A stretch of DNA of 64,000 bases from Crenalkalicoccus roseus. Its GTDB lineage: Bacteria; Pseudomonadota; Alphaproteobacteria; Acetobacterales; Acetobacteraceae. Positions 29,013 through 46,679 of the stretch are shown here, one piece after another; position 1 is the stretch's first letter; every line of letters begins with the position of its first letter. Location: the NCBI RefSeq assembly GCF_004761865.1, contig NZ_SJDM01000005.1, forward strand, positions 62,001 to 126,000. Reading direction: 5' to 3'. The notes under the pieces were generated by a model. It had not been told where the DNA came from, did not search any database, and saw only the letters and a program-made list of their open reading frames with translations. The position numbers were made by a program, and so were the translations under genes.

Positions 29013-29780
29013 TCAGCGCCGTCCGGGCGGGGAGAGGCTCGCCAGCGGCCGCCCCGTCAGGGGGATCGGCATGGCGCGGTAGGCGTCGAGGCCGCGCCCG
29101 CCGCCGGCGGCGGGCGCCGGCAGCACCGCCACCCGCTCCGCCCCGTTCGAGAGCATGGGCGCGCCCGCCGCCACCGCCACCGCCACCGGCGCCGGGACGG
29201 GCGGGCGCAGGCTGGCGAGGGCTGGCGGCTCGGGCGCTCCCCGCTCCTCCGCCCAGGCCGCGGCGACGCGGGCGCGGTAGGCGGCCGCCAGCTCCGGCGT
29301 CTGGCTGTGGTAATGCGCCGCGGCGAGCATCCAGTCGCCGCGCGTCGCCTGCAGCTCGCGCAGGAAGCGCGCGGCGTAGCGGGCATTGGCCAGGGGATCG
29401 AAGGCCTCCTCGAGCGAGGCGAAGGCGTTCGGGTGGTGGCGCAGGTTGATCTGCAGGCAGCCCACGTCGATCGAGCGCACCCCCTGCGCCTGCAGCGCTC
29501 GCACCGCGGCAATCGCTGCCGCCTTGTCCGGGAAGAAGCTGCCGCGCCCCTCGGCATTGATGGTCCAGGGCCAGGGGCCGAAGCTGCCGGTCTCCGGATC
29601 CCGCCGGCCGGATTCCACCCGCGCCATGGCGGCGAGCAGCCGCGGCGGCAGCCCCGCCTCGCGCTCCACCTGCGCCACGGCGGCACGGCACAGCCGCTCC
29701 GCCCCCGGCCCCGCCGGCAGGGCGTGGGCGCCGGCGGCCCAGGCGAGGGCGAGCAGGGCGGTCAGCAGGGCGAGAGGCAT
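29013..29780 (-). CDS. Lytic transglycosylase domain protein (SLT type)
   Basis: 255 residues. Signal peptide about 1-20 ending 'AHALPAG'. An SLT domain follows: catalytic Glu56 in 'AMARVESGRR' and 'VGCLQINLRHH' at 106-116, which corresponds to the substrate-groove GxxQIN motif. From about 180 the protein is Pro/Ala-rich. It would cleave the peptidoglycan MurNAc-GlcNAc bond in the periplasm, as specialised transglycosylases of secretion or flagellar systems also do. No such system is next to it. The ATG at 29780 has GGAG at the right distance; longer frames upstream do not look like a signal peptide. Confidence 0.88.
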   Translation of the reverse strand: MPLALLTALLALAWAAGAHALPAGPGAERLCRAAVAQVEREAGLPPRLLAAMARVESGRRDPETGSFGPWPWTINAEGRGSFFPDKAAAIAAVRALQAQGVRSIDVGCLQINLRHHPNAFASLEEAFDPLANARYAARFLRELQATRGDWMLAAAHYHSQTPELAAAYRARVAAAWAEERGAPEPPALASLRPPVPAPVAVAVAAGAPMLSNGAERVAVLPAPAAGGGRGLDAYRAMPIPLTGRPLASLSPPGRR

Positions 29781-29916
29781 GGGCAGGGTCTCCGGCACCC
29801 GTGGCAGTGCCGGAAGGGCTGCAATCGCCATGCCAGGGCACGGTCCCGCGCGGGCCCTGGATCGGCGGCCAATCCGCCCCATGTGCCGGGCAGCGCCCGC
29901 CCGATGGAGGCCCGCC

Positions 29917-30861
29917 ATGCTGATCCGCATCACGCGCGGCTGGGAGATCCCCGACCGCCTGGCCACGCCCGAGGCGCTGGTGTTCGGGCGCCGCGCCGTG
30001 CTCGGCGGCACGGCCCTCGGCCTCGCGACCGGCATCGCCGGGCCGGCCCGGGCGGCCGAGCCCCTCTCCCTGCCGCCCGCCATGCGCAACACGCGCTACG
30101 CGCCCGGCCGCGCCGTCACGCCGGAGCGGGAGGTGACGAGCTACAACAACTTCTACGAATTCGGCAGCCACAAGGGCATCGCCCGCGCCGCACAGCGCCT
30201 GCCGCAGCGCCCCTGGACGGTGAAGGTGGACGGGCTGGTGGACCACCCGCGCGAGTTCGGCATCGAGGACCTGCTGCGCGAGATGCCGCTGGAGGAGCGG
30301 GTCTATCGCCTGCGCTGCGTCGAGGCCTGGTCCATGGTGGTGCCCTGGACCGGCTTCCCGCTCTCGGCGCTGCTCGACCGGGTGGCCCCGCAATCCGGGG
30401 CGAAGTACGTCCGCTTCGAGACGGCGGCGATCCCCGGCGTGATGCCGGGCCTGCGGCAGAGCTGGTATCCCTGGCCCTACATCGAGGGCTGCACCATCGA
30501 GGAGGCGGCGCACGAACTCTCCTTCCTGGTGGTCGGCGCCTACGGCAAGCCGCTGCCGCCGCAGAATGGCGGCCCGATCCGGATCCACCAGCCCTGGAAG
30601 TACGGCTTCAAGGCCGGCAAGTCGCTGGTGCGCGTCAGCCTCGTCGCCGAGCGGCCGAAGAGCTTCTGGGAGACGGTGCAGCCCTCCGAATACGGCTTCT
30701 GGGCCAATGTGAACCCCGCCGTGCCGCATCCGCGCTGGAGCCAGGCGACGGAACGGGTGCTCGGCACCGGCGAGCTGGTGCCGACCCAGCTCTTCAACGG
30801 CTATGGGGAGTTCGTCGCCGGGCTCTATGCTGGGCTCGAGAACGAGCGGCTCTGGGCCTGA
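29917..30861 (+). CDS. msrP: Protein-methionine-sulfoxide reductase catalytic subunit MsrP (YedY)
   Basis: 314 residues. A twin-arginine signal with Arg25-Arg26 ('FGRRAVLGG') is cleaved near 'ARAAEP' (about residue 47). The sulfite-oxidase-fold domain carries the molybdopterin-binding Cys134 in 'RCVEAWSM'. 'PWKYGFKAGKSL' near 228 is another MsrP landmark. It repairs oxidised methionines in periplasmic proteins. GGAGG lies just before the ATG. The usual heme-binding membrane partner MsrQ (about 200 residues, six helices) is not the next gene; a much smaller membrane protein is. Confidence 0.93.
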   Translation: MLIRITRGWEIPDRLATPEALVFGRRAVLGGTALGLATGIAGPARAAEPLSLPPAMRNTRYAPGRAVTPEREVTSYNNFYEFGSHKGIARAAQRLPQRPWTVKVDGLVDHPREFGIEDLLREMPLEERVYRLRCVEAWSMVVPWTGFPLSALLDRVAPQSGAKYVRFETAAIPGVMPGLRQSWYPWPYIEGCTIEEAAHELSFLVVGAYGKPLPPQNGGPIRIHQPWKYGFKAGKSLVRVSLVAERPKSFWETVQPSEYGFWANVNPAVPHPRWSQATERVLGTGELVPTQLFNGYGEFVAGLYAGLENERLWA

Positions 30862-31137: not shown

Positions 31138-32649
31138 CTACCGCGCCGCCGCGAGCGCCGCCGCCGCCTCGGCGAAGCGCGCGGGATCGGCGAGGACGCG
31201 CGGCACCTTGTGCTGGCCGCCGAGCTTCCCCTCGGCCCGCATCCAGGCGGCGAAGGCTCCGGGCGGCAGCAGCACGACCTCGGGCGGGCCGAGCTGGCCG
31301 CCGCGGCGGTGCACCTCGTAATCCTCGTTCGTTTCCGACAGCGCCGCGTCCAGCCGCGCCGCCAGGCGCTCCGCCAGGGCGGGCGAGGGGGCGGGGGAGG
31401 CCAGCTCGACCAGCCAGCGGTGGCGTCCCCGCACGCCCTCCAGCACCGGGCCGACCGTGTACTCGGCCACCATGCTCCCCTCCGCCACCACTGCGGCGAG
31501 CAGCGCCGTCTCGATCTCCTCTCCCGACAGGTGCTCGCCGAAGGTCGAGAGGGTGTAGGAGGTGCGGCCGGTCACCAGCAGCCGCGGCGGCGCGCGCCCC
31601 ACGAAGCGCACCGTGTCGCCCAGAACATAGGCCCAGAGCCCGGCGCAGGAGGTGGCGACCACGGCGTACTCCACCCCGGTCTCGATGGTCGCCGCCCAGT
31701 GGCGCACCGCGCGCGCCGCGCCGAGCGTCTCCACCGGCACGAATTCCCAGAACACGCCGCGGTCAAGGGTGAGCCGCATCCCCTCGCCCTCGTCCGCATC
31801 GGCGATGGCGCAGAAGCCCTCGCTCGCGGGATAGACCTCGCGCGTCGCGCAGCCCGGGGGGAGGTAGGGGCGGATGCGGTCGCGGTAGGGCGCCCAGGCG
31901 ACGCCGCCATGCACCAGCAGTTCCAGCGCCGGGAGCGGCGGGCGGCCGTGCCGCGCCGCGAGGCGCTCCAGCAGCATCAGCAGCCAGGAGGGCGTGCCGG
32001 AAAGGACGCGGATGCGCGCCGCCGGCGCCGCCTCGGCCAGCGCGGCAAGCTTGCGCTCCCAGTCGGCGATCAGCGCCAGGTCGCGCGGCGGGAAGCTCCA
32101 GGGGCGGAGCAGGCGCGGCACCTCGGCGGCGGCGATGCCGGACAGGTCGCCCTGCCGCACCCCCGGCGCCACCCGCTCCAGCGCCGTCGAGCCGCCGAGC
32201 ATGAAGGAGAGGCCGCCGAACACCCGGCTGCGCGGGTGCCGCGCGAGGTGCCAGGCCAGCACGTCGAAGGCGGCGCCCCGATTGGCCCGCACCATCGCCC
32301 GCGTCACCGGGATGTGCTTGTTGCGCCCGGAGGTGGTGCCGGAGGAGAGGGCGAAATAGGGCACCAGCCCCGGCCAGGTGACGTCGCGCAGCGTCGGATA
32401 GGCGGGGCGCCACCATTCCTCCCAGAACGCCTCGTAGCGCCGCAGCGGCACCGCCGCCTGGAACTCCCCGACGCTGCGCAGCCGCTCGAAGCCGTGGGCG
32501 CGGCCGAAGCGCGTGCGTGCGGCGCGGCGCAGCAGAGAGAGCAGCAGCCGGCGCTGCGCCTCCGCCGGGTCGAGCCGACGGAGCCGGGCGAGGCGCCGCA
32601 CGGCGAAGACGCGCAGCAGCGGCGTGGCGTCGAAGGGCGGGGGGCGCAT
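31138..32649 (-). CDS. GH3 auxin-responsive-promoter family acyl-amido synthetase
   Basis: 503 residues of the acyl-adenylate superfamily. Motif I is 'LSSGTTSGRNK' (101-111), motif II 'YPASEGF' near 272 and motif III 'YVLGDTVRF' near 340, the GH3 versions of the ATP/AMP-binding motifs. Plant GH3 enzymes join a carboxylic acid to an amino acid through an acyl-AMP; bacterial GH3 proteins are less studied. Its ATG overlaps the stop of the penicillin-acylase gene (TGATG), so the two are translationally coupled. No signal peptide, so it is cytoplasmic. It ends two bases from the convergent small membrane protein gene. Confidence 0.9.
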   Translation of the reverse strand: MRPPPFDATPLLRVFAVRRLARLRRLDPAEAQRRLLLSLLRRAARTRFGRAHGFERLRSVGEFQAAVPLRRYEAFWEEWWRPAYPTLRDVTWPGLVPYFALSSGTTSGRNKHIPVTRAMVRANRGAAFDVLAWHLARHPRSRVFGGLSFMLGGSTALERVAPGVRQGDLSGIAAAEVPRLLRPWSFPPRDLALIADWERKLAALAEAAPAARIRVLSGTPSWLLMLLERLAARHGRPPLPALELLVHGGVAWAPYRDRIRPYLPPGCATREVYPASEGFCAIADADEGEGMRLTLDRGVFWEFVPVETLGAARAVRHWAATIETGVEYAVVATSCAGLWAYVLGDTVRFVGRAPPRLLVTGRTSYTLSTFGEHLSGEEIETALLAAVVAEGSMVAEYTVGPVLEGVRGRHRWLVELASPAPSPALAERLAARLDAALSETNEDYEVHRRGGQLGPPEVVLLPPGAFAAWMRAEGKLGGQHKVPRVLADPARFAEAAAALAAAR

Positions 32650-34934
32650 CAGCGGGGGCGCAGCACCGTCACACGGGGGAACTCGGCCGCCACCGTCTCC
32701 GGCCGGAGCGGCATGCGGATGGCCCGCCGCTCCCGCCACAGCGCCACCTGGTCGGCGAAGGCGGCGCTGCCGAGCCAGCCGTCCTGGCCGCCGAACAGCA
32801 CGAACCAGTTGGCGTCGGGGTCGGCGAGGTCGGAGACGTGGCGGGCCATGGAGCCGAAGGTGACCTCGTGCCGGCCGCCGACCAGCCCGTGCCCGGTCTT
32901 CATCGGTGTCTCGCGGGAGCCGCCGACCGGCCAGTCGCCGAAGACGAAGCGGCGGCCGAGCAGGGGCAGGTTCACCAGCCAGTGCGCGGCGCGCAGCCGG
33001 TGCACCTCGCCCCAGTCGCGGTGGCGCGCGGCGAGCGGCGCCGCCTCCGCCACCGCCTGGCGCAGCACCGCCTCCCGCCGCGCGGGCGGCAGGGCGTCGA
33101 GGTCGCGCAGCAGGAAGGTGGTGATGAAGTTCCAGCCCGTCTCCGGTCCGCGCCCGCCGCGCCCCTCCGGCAGCAGCAGCGGCACGAGGTGGCCGAGGAG
33201 CAGCTCGAACACCAGCGCCGCCTCGCTTTCCGCCGCGTAGTCGCCGTCCCAGCCGCGCAGCCGCGCCAGCATCGCCGGCTCGGGCGGGCCGCCCGGCAGG
33301 GCGTCGAGCCGGGCGAGCAGCCCCTCCGCCAGCGCCGCCGCCTTGGGCGCGCGCGTGTCGGCCTGCAGCGCCGTAAGGTCGGCGGCGGAGAGGCGGGGCC
33401 TGGCGAGCAGCAGGGCGCGCAGCCGTTCCAGCCGGTCGCCGTCGGAGAAGAACCAGCCGATCGGCGGCGGCGCCTCCGTCCAGGTGGCAGGGTTCTCGTT
33501 GGCCGAGGCGAGCACGCCCTCGGGCGGATCCTCGAGCCATGGCAGGTCGCGCGAATCCCACAGGCGCCGCCAGGGGGCCGCGGCGGCGGGATCGGCCGCG
33601 TCCAGCACCGGATCCTCCGCCGGGAAGCCGGTGCGGGCAGGCAGGGTCGCCGCGACCAGCCGGCCGATCCGCCCCGCGCGGTCGGCGTAGAGCATGTTCT
33701 GGGGCGAGACGCCGAAGCCGGCGAAGCTCTTGCGGAACTCGGCGGCGCTGCGGGCGCGCGCGGCGCGCAGCAGGGCGGTGACCTCGTCGGTCGGCTCGTG
33801 GCCGATCCAGCGCAGCGCGATCGCCTCTCCGGGCCGGGAGGGGACGAGGGCGGCGTCGGTCACCACCGGGCCGAACGGCGTCACCCGCACGCGGCGCCGG
33901 GCGCCGAACCACAGGCGCTGGCGGATCACCTCCTCCCGCTCCTCCACCTGTTCGGGCGGCAGGCGGGAGACGTCGAACAGGTCGGAGGAGGCGGCGCGCA
34001 GGTTGGTCCCGCCCCAGGCGAGGTCCGGGTTGCGCCCGATCCCGATGATCGGCAGCCCGGGCACCATCAGCCCGACCAGGTGCCAGGAGGGGCTGCGCAT
34101 GCCGGCGATCAGCCAGAGATTGGGCAGGGAGAGACCGAGATGCGGGTCCGAGGCGAAGAGCGCCGCCCCGCTCTCGCTGCGCCAGGGGGCGACCGCCACC
34201 GTGTTGCTGCCGCCGCGCGCGCTGCCGGAGAGGATGGCGCCGAGCGGGGTCGCCTCGGGCTCGGCCAGGCCGGCGCCGGCCTCCAGCACCCGCTGCCAGA
34301 GGGTGGCGAAGCCGGGATCGCCGCGGTCGCGCAGCAGCGAGAACAGCGCCAGCCAGTTGATGTCGAGCCCGGCCAGCCGGCCGATCGCCAGCATGTCCGC
34401 CGCCGTGTAGGGCTCGGGGGAAAGGCCGAGCAGGGCGAATTCGGGCGGCGGCCGGCCGCTCCGGAGCGTCGCGTGGTTCAGCCCGGCGAGGAAGGCGGCG
34501 ACGAATTCCCGCGTCTCCGGCGGCCAGGCCGCTTCCACCGCGGGCGCGGCGCGGCCGAAATCGAGGATGCGGAGGGCATGGTCTATGTCCCGCGCCAGGG
34601 GGCCCGCGATCTCCGAAAGGCGCCCGCGCGCCACCATGCGCAGGAGGGCGATCTGCGCCCCGCGCAGATGCCCGTGCACGAGGCCGAGGGCGAAGGCGAG
34701 ATCGGCGTCGGTCTCGGCCTCGATCCAGGGGACGAGATGGTCGTTCCAGCGGATGGTGACGGGCCGCTGCAGCGCCAGCCCCTCCCGCGGCAGGGCGGCG
34801 AGGCGCTGCTCGATGCCGACCGGGCGGGGGCTGAGTGCGGCGCAGCCCGGCAGCAGCGCGGCCAGCGCCAGCAGCAGCGCCGCCCCGCCCGCGATTCCGA
34901 CACCCTGCCTCCTGCCCCTGCTCCGCGCCCGCAC
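32649..34934 (-). CDS. Penicillin acylase family lipoprotein (Ntn hydrolase)
   Basis: 761 residues from a GTG start. The N-terminus has an Arg-rich start, a hydrophobic helix and a lipobox 'LLPGC' with Cys31, predicting export and lipid anchoring. The Ntn-hydrolase autoprocessing site 'GGSNTVAV' puts the new N-terminal nucleophile at Ser243, giving alpha (32-242) and beta (243-761) chains. Relatives hydrolyse penicillins, N-acyl-homoserine lactones or other N-acyl amides. The beta chain includes 'SANENPATW' and 'WGGTNLRAASSDLF', both family landmarks. Coupled to the GH3 gene by a TGATG overlap. Substrate unknown. Confidence 0.9.
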   Translation of the reverse strand: MRARSRGRRQGVGIAGGAALLLALAALLPGCAALSPRPVGIEQRLAALPREGLALQRPVTIRWNDHLVPWIEAETDADLAFALGLVHGHLRGAQIALLRMVARGRLSEIAGPLARDIDHALRILDFGRAAPAVEAAWPPETREFVAAFLAGLNHATLRSGRPPPEFALLGLSPEPYTAADMLAIGRLAGLDINWLALFSLLRDRGDPGFATLWQRVLEAGAGLAEPEATPLGAILSGSARGGSNTVAVAPWRSESGAALFASDPHLGLSLPNLWLIAGMRSPSWHLVGLMVPGLPIIGIGRNPDLAWGGTNLRAASSDLFDVSRLPPEQVEEREEVIRQRLWFGARRRVRVTPFGPVVTDAALVPSRPGEAIALRWIGHEPTDEVTALLRAARARSAAEFRKSFAGFGVSPQNMLYADRAGRIGRLVAATLPARTGFPAEDPVLDAADPAAAAPWRRLWDSRDLPWLEDPPEGVLASANENPATWTEAPPPIGWFFSDGDRLERLRALLLARPRLSAADLTALQADTRAPKAAALAEGLLARLDALPGGPPEPAMLARLRGWDGDYAAESEAALVFELLLGHLVPLLLPEGRGGRGPETGWNFITTFLLRDLDALPPARREAVLRQAVAEAAPLAARHRDWGEVHRLRAAHWLVNLPLLGRRFVFGDWPVGGSRETPMKTGHGLVGGRHEVTFGSMARHVSDLADPDANWFVLFGGQDGWLGSAAFADQVALWRERRAIRMPLRPETVAAEFPRVTVLRPR

Positions 34935-35051: not shown

Positions 35052-36722
35052 TCAGTCCCGGCGCATCGCCCGGGTCAGGGCCAGCACCGGCAGCAGCCCC
35101 ACCAGCACGATGAGCAGCGCCGCCGTGCTGGCCTCGGCCAGGCGCTCGTCGGCGGCGAGGTTGTAGACCCGGACGGCGAGCGTATCGAAATCGAAGGGGC
35201 GGACGATCAGGGTCGCCGGCAGCTCCTTCATCGTGTCCACGAAGACCAGGATGAAGGCGGTGAGCAGGCTGGGCCGCGCCAGGGGGAGTTCCACCCGCAG
35301 CACCGCGCCGCCGGGCCGCTGGCCGAGCACGCGCGCCGCGTCCCGGAGGCTCGGCCGCAGCCGCGCCAGGCCCGATTCCACCGAGGAGAGCGCGACGGCG
35401 AGGAAGCGCACCAGGTAGGCGAAGACCAGGGCCGCGATGCCGCCCGAGAGCAGCAGCCCCGTGGAGACGCCGAAGCGCGCGCGCATCCAGGCGTCGAGCG
35501 CGTTGTCGAACAGGGCGAGCGGCACCAGCGTGCCGACGGCGATGACGGAGCCCGGAATGGCGTAGCCGAGCCCGGCGACCCGCACGGCGAGACGCTGCGG
35601 CGCCGAGGGGTGGAGCCGCGCCGCCCAGGCGATCAGCGCCGCGATCAGCACGGCGGCGGCGGCGGTGATGCCGGACAGCACCAGGCTGTTGCGGGCGAAG
35701 GGCAGGAAGCGGCCGGGTGCCAGCGGGTCGCCCACCTGCAGCATCAGCACGAGCAGCGTGCCGGCCGGTACGAGGAAGCCGAGCACGACCGGCATGGCAC
35801 AGGCGAGCAGCGCGAGCCAGGCCCGCCAGCCTGTGAGCGGCACCGGGCGCAGCGGCGGGGTGCGCATGGTGGTGGGATGGAAGCGCCGCCCGCCGCGCGA
35901 GGCGTGTTCCAGGGCCAGCAGCACCGCGACCAGCCCCATCAGGCAGGCGGCGAGCTGGCTGGCCGCGCCGCGGTCGCCGAGGCCGAACCAGGCCTCGTAG
36001 ATGCCGGTGGTGAAGGTGGGGACCGCGAAATGCTGGACGGTGCCGAAATCGGCCAGCGTCTCCATCAGCGCCAGCGCGACCCCGCCGGCGATGGCCGGAC
36101 GCGCCATCGGCAGGGCGAGGCGGAGGAAGCAGCGCGAGAGCGAATGGCCGAGGGTGCGGGAGGCCTCGAGCAGGCAGACGCTCTGCTGCAGGAAGGCGGC
36201 GCGGCAGAGCAGGTACACATAGGGATAGAGCACCATCCCGAGCACCAGCGCCGCGCCGGGCAGGCTGCGGATCTCGGGGAACCAGTACTGCCCCCAACGC
36301 AGGCCGGTGAGGTCGCGGAGCAGCGTCTGCACCGGCCCCGCGACATCGAGCAGCCAGGTGTAGGCGTAGCCGCAGACATAGGCCGGCATGGCCAGCGGCA
36401 GCAGCAGCGCGACCTCGAGCACCGGGCGGAACGGGAAGCGGAAGGCGGTGACGAGCCAGGCGGCGAGGGCACCGGCCGAGGCGGTGATCGCCCCGACCAT
36501 GGCCGCGAGCAGCACGGAGTTGCGCAGCATCTCCGGCAGGGTGGTGGCGAGGATGTGGCGCCAGGCGTCGCCGACCGGAACCAGGGCCGTGACCAGCACC
36601 GCCAGCAGGGGCGAGGCGATCAGCAGCGCCACCACCAGGGAGAGCAGCGGCCAGAGGGAGGGGCGCCGGCGCCGGGCGGCCTGGGCGGCCCGGACCGGCA
36701 GGAAGGTGGTGGCGCCGGACAT
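35052..36722 (-). CDS. Iron(III)-type ABC transporter permease (FbpB/AfuB-like, fused two-half form)
   Basis: 556 residues with about twelve membrane helices in two homologous halves, each carrying an EAA-type loop ('EASRTLGHSLSRCFLRLALP' near 195 and 'DAARVLGQRPGGAVLRVELP' near 470). This double permease fits the ferric iron transporters FbpB/SfuB. No binding protein or ATPase gene is adjacent, so it must work with proteins encoded elsewhere. The ATG at 36722 is preferred to the TTG at 36740, which has no better ribosome site. The Fur-like palindrome at 36725-36739 ends two bases before this ATG, consistent with iron control and a very short leader. Confidence 0.88.
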   Translation of the reverse strand: MSGATTFLPVRAAQAARRRRPSLWPLLSLVVALLIASPLLAVLVTALVPVGDAWRHILATTLPEMLRNSVLLAAMVGAITASAGALAAWLVTAFRFPFRPVLEVALLLPLAMPAYVCGYAYTWLLDVAGPVQTLLRDLTGLRWGQYWFPEIRSLPGAALVLGMVLYPYVYLLCRAAFLQQSVCLLEASRTLGHSLSRCFLRLALPMARPAIAGGVALALMETLADFGTVQHFAVPTFTTGIYEAWFGLGDRGAASQLAACLMGLVAVLLALEHASRGGRRFHPTTMRTPPLRPVPLTGWRAWLALLACAMPVVLGFLVPAGTLLVLMLQVGDPLAPGRFLPFARNSLVLSGITAAAAVLIAALIAWAARLHPSAPQRLAVRVAGLGYAIPGSVIAVGTLVPLALFDNALDAWMRARFGVSTGLLLSGGIAALVFAYLVRFLAVALSSVESGLARLRPSLRDAARVLGQRPGGAVLRVELPLARPSLLTAFILVFVDTMKELPATLIVRPFDFDTLAVRVYNLAADERLAEASTAALLIVLVGLLPVLALTRAMRRD

Positions 36723-36724
36723 CT

Positions 36725-36739
36725 TGCGAATGCTTCTCA
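36725..36739 (-). promoter_or_regulatory. Fur-box-like palindrome at the start of the iron permease gene
   Basis: On the minus strand this reads TGAGAAGCATTCGCA, matching the palindrome TGAGAATCATTCTCA of classic Fur boxes at 13 of 15 positions; the surrounding TTG...CAA extends the symmetry by one base each side. It ends two bases ahead of the ATG, so a bound repressor would block transcription start or ribosome access. A Mur- or other Fur-family protein is also possible. Confidence 0.5.
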
Positions 36740-36743
36740 ATAG

Positions 36744-45413: not shown

Positions 45414-45573
45414 CGCCCGGAGGTGCGTCGGCCCGAGGCGCGGCGGATGGCGGACCTGATGCGCGCCGGGCGGGCTGGGGACCGCACGGGCCGGGGCCGA
45501 TCGTTGCGGCTTCGCGCGGCCCCTTGGCGAACCGCGACGCCCCGCCTAAGTCGTTGATTTGTGAGATGAATGG

Positions 45574-45648
45574 TGGTGGGCGATAGTGGGATTGAACCAC
45601 TGACCTTCCCCGTGTCAGGGGGACGCTCTCCCGCTGAGCTAATCGCCC
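45574..45648 (-). tRNA. tRNA-Val (anticodon GAC)
   Basis: 75 bases folding into a standard cloverleaf: acceptor GGGCGAT with ATCGCCC, D-stem GCTC/GAGC, anticodon stem TCCCC/GGGGA with loop CTGACAC (anticodon GAC), T-arm AGTGG-TTCAATC-CCACT, and an encoded CCA 3' end. A promoter TTGCCT-N17-TAGTAA lies just upstream (45663-45691). Confidence 0.97.
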
Positions 45649-45662
45649 GCCGGCGGCAGCGG

Positions 45663-45691
45663 TTACTACCCGTCGCCGCGGCCCGAGGCAA
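45663..45691 (-). promoter_or_regulatory. Promoter of tRNA-Val
   Basis: TTGCCT (45691-45686), exactly 17 bases, TAGTAA (45668-45663). The predicted start is about eight bases before the mature tRNA 5' end. Confidence 0.6.
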
Positions 45692-45785
45692 GCTCCGACT
45701 CCGCCCTTATGGAGCGACCGATCCATCGCCCCCGCGCCACAGGCGGATGACAGCGGCGGCCGGCTGTGGCCTTATGCACCCTCCG

Positions 45786-46679
45786 ATGGACATGCCTCTC
45801 GACATCGCCGGAACGCCGGCCGGATCGGGTTCGGGCGCGGCCGAGGCGCCCTACCTGCTGAGCCGGCCCGAGCGGCAGACGGTGCCGCTGGTCTTCGCCT
45901 CGCCCCATTCGGGTCGCGTCTACCCCCCCTCCTTCGTGGCCGCGGCACGGCTCGACCCTCTGGCGCTGCGGCGCAGCGAGGACAGTTTCGTGGAGGAACT
46001 GTTCGCCGCCGCCCCGGCGCATGGCGCGCCGCTGCTGGCCGCCACCTTCCCGCGCGTCTTCTGCGACGTGAACCGCGAGCCCTGGGAGCTCGACCCGGGC
46101 ATGTTCGACGGGCCGTTGCCCTCCTTCGTGAACACCGCAAGCCCGCGTGTCTGCGCCGGCCTCGGCACCATCGCTCGAGTGGTGGCGACGGGAGAGGCGG
46201 TCTATCGCCGCAAGCTCAGCTTCGCCGAGGCCGAGGAGCGGATCCGCCGCTACTGGCAGCCCTACCATGCCGCCCTGGCGGCACTGATCGCCGAAACCAG
46301 GTCCCGCTTCGGCTGCTGCCTGCTGGTGGACTGCCACTCCATGCCCACCCACCCCGTCCAGGCAGCCAGCCCGCCCGATGTCGTGCTGGGCGACGCGCAT
46401 GGCACCGCCTGTGCGCCGCGCGCGACCCGGCTGATGGAGGAGGCGCTGCAGGATCTCGGCTACCGCGTGCGGCGCAACGATCCCTATGCGGGCGGCTACG
46501 TCACCCGCCATTACGGCCGTCCGCGAGAAGGGGTGCACGCGCTGCAGATCGAGATCGCCAGGACCCTCTACATGGACGAGGCCCGGATCGAGCGGCTGCC
46601 GCGCATGGCGGCGCTGCGGCGGGACCTGACCCGGCTGGTGGAGATCCTGGCCGGGACCGACTGGTCCTTCCTGCGCTGA
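45786..46679 (+). CDS. N-formylglutamate amidohydrolase family protein
   Basis: 297 residues. 'VFASPHSGRVYPP' (about 37-49), 'DVNREPWELDPGMF' and 'VDCHSMPT' (the last with metal-binding Asp/His) are the conserved lines of the HutG/N-formylglutamate deformylase family, which splits N-formyl-L-glutamate to formate and glutamate at the end of one histidine degradation route. No hut genes are adjacent, and many paralogues act on other N-formyl amino acids. Start choice is uncertain: ATGs at 45747, 45774, 45786 and 45792 are in frame and none has a clear ribosome site. It shares a terminator hairpin with the antisense-oriented sRNA downstream. Confidence 0.85.
   Translation: MDMPLDIAGTPAGSGSGAAEAPYLLSRPERQTVPLVFASPHSGRVYPPSFVAAARLDPLALRRSEDSFVEELFAAAPAHGAPLLAATFPRVFCDVNREPWELDPGMFDGPLPSFVNTASPRVCAGLGTIARVVATGEAVYRRKLSFAEAEERIRRYWQPYHAALAALIAETRSRFGCCLLVDCHSMPTHPVQAASPPDVVLGDAHGTACAPRATRLMEEALQDLGYRVRRNDPYAGGYVTRHYGRPREGVHALQIEIARTLYMDEARIERLPRMAALRRDLTRLVEILAGTDWSFLR

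Follow-up and report, generated by a model that had tools for sequence, protein, structure and literature searches.

What could bring the gene for a predicted exported, amide-cleaving enzyme into overlap with the gene for a predicted cytoplasmic, amide-forming one? The question is raised by a locus in the alphaproteobacterium Crenalkalicoccus roseus, found in a 64,000-nucleotide stretch of contig NZ_SJDM01000005.1 (positions 62,001 to 126,000; this whole stretch is called the window below, and coordinates are counted from its first base). The upstream gene of the pair (32649..34934, minus strand, GTG start) encodes a 761-residue N-terminal nucleophile (Ntn) amidohydrolase of the penicillin acylase family (PF01804, E 4.8e-143), which is predicted to be exported and may be a lipoprotein. 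The downstream gene (31138..32649, minus strand, ATG start) encodes a 503-residue OlsH-like GH3 amido synthetase in which no signal sequence was seen. The TGA codon of the acylase gene (32651-32649) and the ATG codon of the GH3 gene (32649-32647) have one A in common, producing the sequence TGATG (32647..32651, minus strand). The overlapping genes had been placed correctly in an original prediction for this DNA, which left their strand unstated, and its proposal of one enzyme outside the cell and one inside agrees with our own predictions for the acylase and the GH3 protein, respectively. As described below, the conservation of this gene pair suggests an undescribed cycle that makes and unmakes amino-acid lipids in many alphaproteobacteria.

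Conservation of the acylase-GH3 gene pair

The neighborhood of GH3 homologs was surveyed in samples of 150 genomes from the home family and 385 from its class (the C. roseus genome being in both samples), in 398 genomes of the phylum, and in a named collection of loci that overlaps with the genome samples, at least 6 of its contigs being equal in length to contigs of those samples. Acylase orthologs were defined as matches of at least 278 bits: in the class sample the acylase subfamily tied to GH3 scores at least 278 bits with the acylase P0001, the remaining matches drop to 213 bits or less, and these lower matches (e.g. in G512, G407, G491 and G325) were not counted. One case, G371, which is among the adjacent class genomes given below, was added by hand, as an acylase fragment of 144 residues (138 bits, 51% identity) lies beside its GH3 gene. 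Second copies of the acylase subfamily occur in G296 and G473.

In the family sample, 25 of 150 genomes have a strong GH3 match (at least 482 bits; a split match of 46–52 bits in G010 was not counted as GH3-positive), and the acylase ortholog lies directly upstream in 23 of these. The two exceptions are G081 and G085, and one further family genome (G144) yielded no GH3 match and has its acylase at the end of a contig. Across the class, 57 of 385 genomes match the GH3 model, 47 of them strongly when the home genome is included; the other 10, with best scores of at most 91 bits, were not treated as GH3-positive. The acylase is adjacent to GH3 in 30 of the 47 and lacking in 7, while 10 of the 17 non-adjacent genomes still carry the ortholog elsewhere. 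In one of these ten (G229), the acylase at the end of a contig has part of a GH3 gene next to it, so that this pair is probably adjacent too. Several of the exceptions involve incomplete genomes or contig ends, as in G081 (73% complete), G275 (74% complete) and G156, whose GH3 gene is at a contig end.

When both samples are combined and the home genome is counted once, 71 genomes are GH3-positive, of which 62 have an acylase ortholog and 52 have it directly upstream of the GH3 gene. Because an orthologous acylase is found directly upstream in 52 of 71 GH3-positive genomes, chance adjacency is excluded, and the notion that the arrangement might be peculiar to this strain, named in the original prediction as a possible refutation, fails. 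The adjacent genomes span 20 family labels; by match edges, 49 of 53 adjacent rows have the two genes within 110 bases of each other and the remainder within 460. Fisher tests of co-occurrence give p values of 1e-23 and 5e-33, uncorrected for kinship. In 20 of 39 linked pairs examined, the stop codon of the acylase gene shares bases with an in-frame ATG, GTG or TTG, each being a candidate start only.

Of the loci in the named collection, 30 have alphaproteobacterial or proteobacterial labels, and 20 of these hold the acylase upstream of GH3; it is matched in none of the 50 other loci, mostly planctomycete and Bacteroidota, a far 82-bit match in L170 being left uncounted. The phylum sample holds four strong GH3 genes: three belong to class members already counted as adjacent, and the fourth (G627), the sole strong GH3 outside the class, belongs to another class and also has the acylase directly upstream.

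A relative of OlsH beside a predicted exported amidase

The GH3 protein of the window matches the Pfam domains PF03321, PF23571 and PF23572 (N-terminal, GH3_M and GH3_C), all above cut-offs, and its sole NCBIfam match is NF052613 (OlsH_GH3_orni, lyso-ornithine lipid synthetase; E 3.3e-171). It is 48% identical to OlsH of the planctomycete Singulisphaera acidiphila, whose locus was recovered as L168 in the named collection, and 33–43% identical to Bacteroidota rows. All three GH3 nucleotide motifs noted in the original prediction are intact in our alignments, namely motif I (SSGTTSGRNK, residues 102-111, 32317..32346), motif II (VYPASEG, residues 272-278, 31816..31836) and motif III (GLWAYVLGD, residues 337-345, 31615..31641), all encoded on the minus strand. 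Motif I includes Ser103, which aligns with OlsH Ser115; 59 of the 60 alphaproteobacterial rows have serine there and the remaining one has a gap. In OlsH, Ser115 is described as essential (PMC12493201).

In a quick tree of 75 rows, rooted at the midpoint, the 60 alphaproteobacterial GH3 proteins form one group (Shimodaira-Hasegawa-like approximate likelihood ratio test, SH-aLRT, 99), and next to this group stands a 7-row group that contains OlsH (SH-aLRT 99; both together 98). An eighth planctomycete row (L174) is placed among the Bacteroidota, and a locus labeled as a Bacteroidales metagenome-assembled genome (L166), which has planctomycete-type OlsI, OlsG and OlsH, falls with the planctomycete rows and is possibly misbinned. 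Six positions distinguish the alphaproteobacterial from the planctomycete-clade proteins (at least 80% of the 60 rows versus at least 6 of 7), so that a similar substrate is plausible. A substrate prediction from these six positions was set aside as uninterpretable without a ligand structure. Tandem GH3-GH3 copies were observed in two loci (L102 and L103, genomes G343 and G344), with the acylase ortholog elsewhere in both genomes.

The original prediction took plant GH3 enzymes as its reference. Judged by sequence, these are the wrong yardstick, the nearest characterized relative being the bacterial OlsH, while the chemistry expected from that reference, formation of an N-acyl amino acid with adenosine triphosphate (ATP), is retained in OlsH. 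As reported for S. acidiphila in 2025, OlsH makes N-acyl-ornithine from a free fatty acid and ornithine with ATP and magnesium, uses free fatty acids and not coenzyme A or acyl carrier protein thioesters, has ornithine as its preferred amino acid and lysine and arginine as minor substrates, and is followed by OlsI, which adds the second chain (PMC12493201). Its authors suggest that the failure of OlsH in living Escherichia coli reflects a shortage of free fatty acid, and that relatives outside the planctomycetes may use other amino acids, a question they leave open (PMC12493201). No word beginning with "acylase" occurs in the main text of that paper.

None of the 71 GH3-positive genomes has an OlsI above the curated cut-off, and among matches at E 1e-20 or better, sub-threshold scores (94 and 75 bits) were found in two of them. 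Among the loci compared, OlsI matches at E 1e-4 or better are limited to 6 of planctomycete type, and neither OlsI nor OlsG stands beside the alphaproteobacterial GH3 genes, apart from a single methyltransferase match (28%) in L039. The home genome has weak alpha/beta-hydrolase matches to OlsI (best E 5.8e-7), which were not accepted as OlsI, and the OlsH–OlsI pathway as such was rejected, OlsI being found neither at the loci nor above cut-off in GH3-positive genomes. By these sequence comparisons, the alphaproteobacterial GH3 genes stand beside a predicted exported amidase in place of OlsI.

The PF01804 match of this predicted amidase spans residues 58-749 and nearly the whole profile (positions 1-674 of 675). 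The Ntn processing site claimed in the original prediction is borne out: Ser243 (codon 34206..34208, minus strand), the predicted autoprocessing nucleophile at the Gly-Ser bond of GGSN, is serine in 61 of 61 aligned acylase open reading frames (ORFs) and lines up with the first residue of the mature beta chain of solved acylases. Asn479 is kept in 61 of 61 ORFs and Arg504 in 60 of 61, at about what we take to be the positions of the active-site Asn and Arg of penicillin acylase. The claim of a lipobox at Cys31 (codon 34842..34844, minus strand) holds only in part: the cysteine is in place, but the box reads LLPGC and fails a strict lipobox test, Pro at -2 falling outside the usual pattern. Of the 61 ORFs, 29 have a strict lipobox, 18 have Pro at -2, 10 have no Cys there, 2 are truncated, and 2 more (L081 and L121) carry a lipobox Cys outside the pattern used.

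Predicted structures agree with both family assignments. The acylase model (predicted local distance difference test, pLDDT, 87) matches best to D-succinylase 7ea4 (Z 42.0, 3.0 Å, 678 aligned residues), an enzyme that presumably cleaves N-succinyl amides, followed by cephalosporin acylase (Z 36.4) and the acyl-homoserine lactone (AHL) acylase MacQ (Z 35.6), with PvdQ lower among the matches listed, mostly as single chains. D-succinylase is thus the nearest solved relative by sequence as well as by predicted structure. For the GH3 model (pLDDT 90), 15 of the 16 plant GH3 rows among the matches listed fall at Z 29.1–33.6 and one at 21.9, with PaaK-type and acyl-CoA ligases at 24.1 or below; the match to GH3.5 reaches Z 33.6 (350 aligned, 3.1 Å) and that to GH3.15 Z 32.5 (470 aligned, 3.0 Å), some of these alignments spanning part of the chain only or showing a large root-mean-square deviation.

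Possible functions of the pair

Our tentative preference, held at slightly less than even confidence, is that the pair is a conserved two-enzyme module that makes and breaks N-acyl amino acids, that is, aminolipids with a single chain, of the same type as lyso-ornithine lipid. In the cytoplasm, the GH3 protein would activate a free fatty acid with ATP and couple it to an amino acid, for which ornithine or something similar is the likeliest candidate. For its part, the exported acylase, which probably has an anchor in the envelope, would hydrolyze the same kind of amide to free fatty acid and amino acid, and these products would be the substrates that an OlsH-type GH3 requires. The net effect could be turnover, remodeling or salvage of aminolipids. 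The reading as a make-and-break cycle comes from this match between the free fatty acid needed by an OlsH-type enzyme and the free fatty acid yielded by an amidase of N-acyl amino acids; both substrates, the direction of flux, the exact location of the acylase and a common pool for the two enzymes are inferred. For the acylase side, D-succinylase, its nearest solved relative, acts on D-amino acids according to one description (PMC11241749), and as a precedent a penicillin V acylase from Streptomyces reportedly couples lauric acid with amino acids (PMC11511702).

A number of observations weigh against this proposal. The review behind the Streptomyces precedent files that enzyme under MEROPS C59 and not S45 (PMC11511702), which makes it a weaker precedent and perhaps no close relative, and PF01804 enzymes in general vary in their substrates. 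The lipobox Cys is missing from 6 of the 38 linked acylases that could be read. The window GH3 scores 570.4 bits against an equivalog cut-off of 620 for NF052613, compared with 991 bits for S. acidiphila OlsH, and no GH3 protein exceeds that cut-off in the 150 family, 385 class or 398 phylum genomes. An OlsB-like N-acyltransferase match is present in 143 of 150 family genomes, none above the curated cut-off (the home-genome copy reaches 273 bits, where the cut-offs are 350 and 320); because all 25 GH3-positive family genomes are among the 143, ordinary ornithine lipids are probably made independently of GH3, which is thus probably not needed for them. Furthermore, 9 of the 71 GH3-positive genomes lack the acylase, and 18 class genomes have the acylase but no GH3 (PF03321 matched in 0 of 18), so that neither enzyme needs the other. 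Two loci, L108 (G177) and L123 (G307), are alike in carrying an alpha/beta hydrolase, GH3, an S-adenosylmethionine decarboxylase-like (SpeD-like) gene that follows GH3, and further genes, yet G177 is without the acylase that G307 has between hydrolase and GH3, likely a natural loss. Finally, the joint history of the two genes is clear within the home family and weak beyond it. The gene-tree distances correlate at r 0.75 (best of 2000 permutations 0.33) across the 39 loci in which both genes could be read, every one of them a linked pair, whereas once 14 core members of the home family are taken out, r falls to 0.36 over 25 pairs (best permutation 0.37).

Some of these observations also fit an alternative in which the two enzymes share regulation and not a compound. 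The acylase may scavenge N-acyl amino acids or aminolipids that originate elsewhere, such as OlsB-made ornithine lipids or the lipids of neighboring cells, with the GH3 protein putting the freed fatty acid into an N-acyl amino acid of an unrelated kind. The acylases of the 18 class genomes without a GH3 match can have a GH3-independent job, and OlsB-like matches are widespread in the family sample. In the family sample, however, only 1 of 24 acylase orthologs lacks GH3, and there the contig ends just past the gene. We judge this explanation unlikely, though the likeliest of the rivals. The GH3 half could also have been misread: if the protein were an acyl-CoA ligase or another adenylating enzyme, the genes would adjoin without common chemistry, and we saw no activity data for any alphaproteobacterial member. 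Against this stand the distance in fold scores between the plant GH3 rows and the PaaK-type and acyl-CoA ligases, the 48% identity to an enzyme tested for amide formation, and adjacency in 20 family labels, which together make the idea improbable.

Two further proposals start from the fold that the acylase has in common with PvdQ and MacQ. In one, which we find quite improbable, GH3 would attach a fatty acid as a cap to an amine compound inside the cell, and outside it the cap would be taken off by the exported acylase, much as PvdQ acts in pyoverdine maturation (PMC5474475). No recurring peptide synthetase or exporter was found among the annotated neighbors (30 proteins from other genomes), the neighbors vary by lineage, and the window acylase scores 23.4 bits with the PvdQ equivalog model NF051460, over a single stretch (residues 241-324), against a cut-off of 950. 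The other, a role in quenching or converting AHL signals, had been put forward in the original prediction along with acyl amino acids. We set it aside as very improbable: no AHL synthase or receptor appears among the annotated neighbors, no genome-wide LuxI/LuxR search having been made, D-succinylase (Z 42.0) ranks ahead of MacQ (Z 35.6), and OlsH-type chemistry uses amino acids.

The make-and-break module described above can also be put in a wider form, namely an alphaproteobacterial cycle of N-acyl-amino-acid synthesis and hydrolysis across the inner membrane that controls a bioactive or membrane-remodeling lipid, is encoded by one gene pair mobile between lineages, and is a bacterial counterpart of plant GH3/amidohydrolase and mammalian PM20D1/FAAH. 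In this full form we think it rather unlikely.

Gene neighborhood and comparison with known systems

Only the acylase-GH3 pair was treated as a unit, since its neighbors differ between lineages among the loci fetched. An extended operon was considered and rejected: in some family members the genes in front of the pair encode an ABC permease, a flavin reductase and two-component proteins, but in other lineages the neighbors include hydrolases, a SpeD-like gene, a molybdenum cofactor enzyme, a desaturase and a transposase. In the window, an ABC transporter permease gene (35052..36740, minus strand; BPD_transp_1, E 2e-12) lies upstream of the pair on the same strand, and its cluster (c10) is present in 7 loci including the window, that is, in some close relatives only and outside the core module. 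Convergent with the GH3 gene is a gene for an MsrP-type protein-methionine-sulfoxide reductase catalytic subunit (29386-30861, plus strand; 405 bits against a cut-off of 207). About 11 kb from the pair, a profile match identifies an N-formylglutamate amidohydrolase family protein (45570-46679, plus strand), a further predicted amide-cleaving enzyme.

Histidine kinase and response-regulator clusters lie just upstream of the pair in seven loci (L031, L033, L034, L035, L041, L046 and L047) and are missing at that place in the window. By Pfam analysis of single members, the L035 kinase carries a sensor domain like that of ethylene receptors (ETR1_N, E 4.8e-38) and the L034 response regulator consists of a receiver domain alone. 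A spermidine-synthase-family gene cluster precedes the solitary acylases of L084, L085 and L086, in genomes without a GH3 match; together with the SpeD-like gene that follows GH3 in G177 and G307, it raises a possible connection with polyamines.

The statement in the original prediction that no bacterial system built on this pair had been described agrees with the best-ranked part of the open-access literature searched, in which we found no description of an acylase–GH3 pair (one paper, PMC12369477, mentions GH3, with penicillin acylase only in a reference title); it needs amending in that the GH3 half has had a characterized relative since 2025. An ornithine-lipid amidase was likewise not found in the best-ranked part of that literature, which is weak evidence of absence. 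The OlsH work showed that a bacterial GH3 makes an amino lipid and left the role of non-planctomycete relatives open (PMC12493201). In our survey, those of the Alphaproteobacteria have a consistent partner, with the opposite predicted chemistry and in a different compartment, which turns that open question into a testable two-enzyme hypothesis. If the hypothesis is true, bacteria would have a dedicated route for taking aminolipids apart.

Among known systems, OlsH-OlsI of S. acidiphila, with OlsG, is the closest for the GH3 half, which resembles it in motifs, in its neighboring clade and in its match to the OlsH model (PMC12493201). It differs in its partner, which here is a predicted exported Ntn acylase, and in the score of the GH3 protein below the OlsH equivalog cut-off. 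The acylase half has its fold and GSN processing site in common with the Ntn acylases of PF01804/MEROPS S45 (D-succinylase, PvdQ, MacQ, and cephalosporin and penicillin acylases) but differs from them as a subfamily tied to GH3. In plants, GH3 enzymes are paired with indole-3-acetic acid (IAA)-amino acid hydrolases. In mammals, PM20D1 and FAAH control N-acyl amino acids (PMC7145423). If the substrates inferred here hold, the bacterial pair would be like both in dividing synthesis and hydrolysis between enzymes, and like the mammalian system in dividing them between compartments as well, whereas the hydrolases of the plant and mammalian systems belong to families unrelated to the acylase and neither system is a bacterial gene pair.

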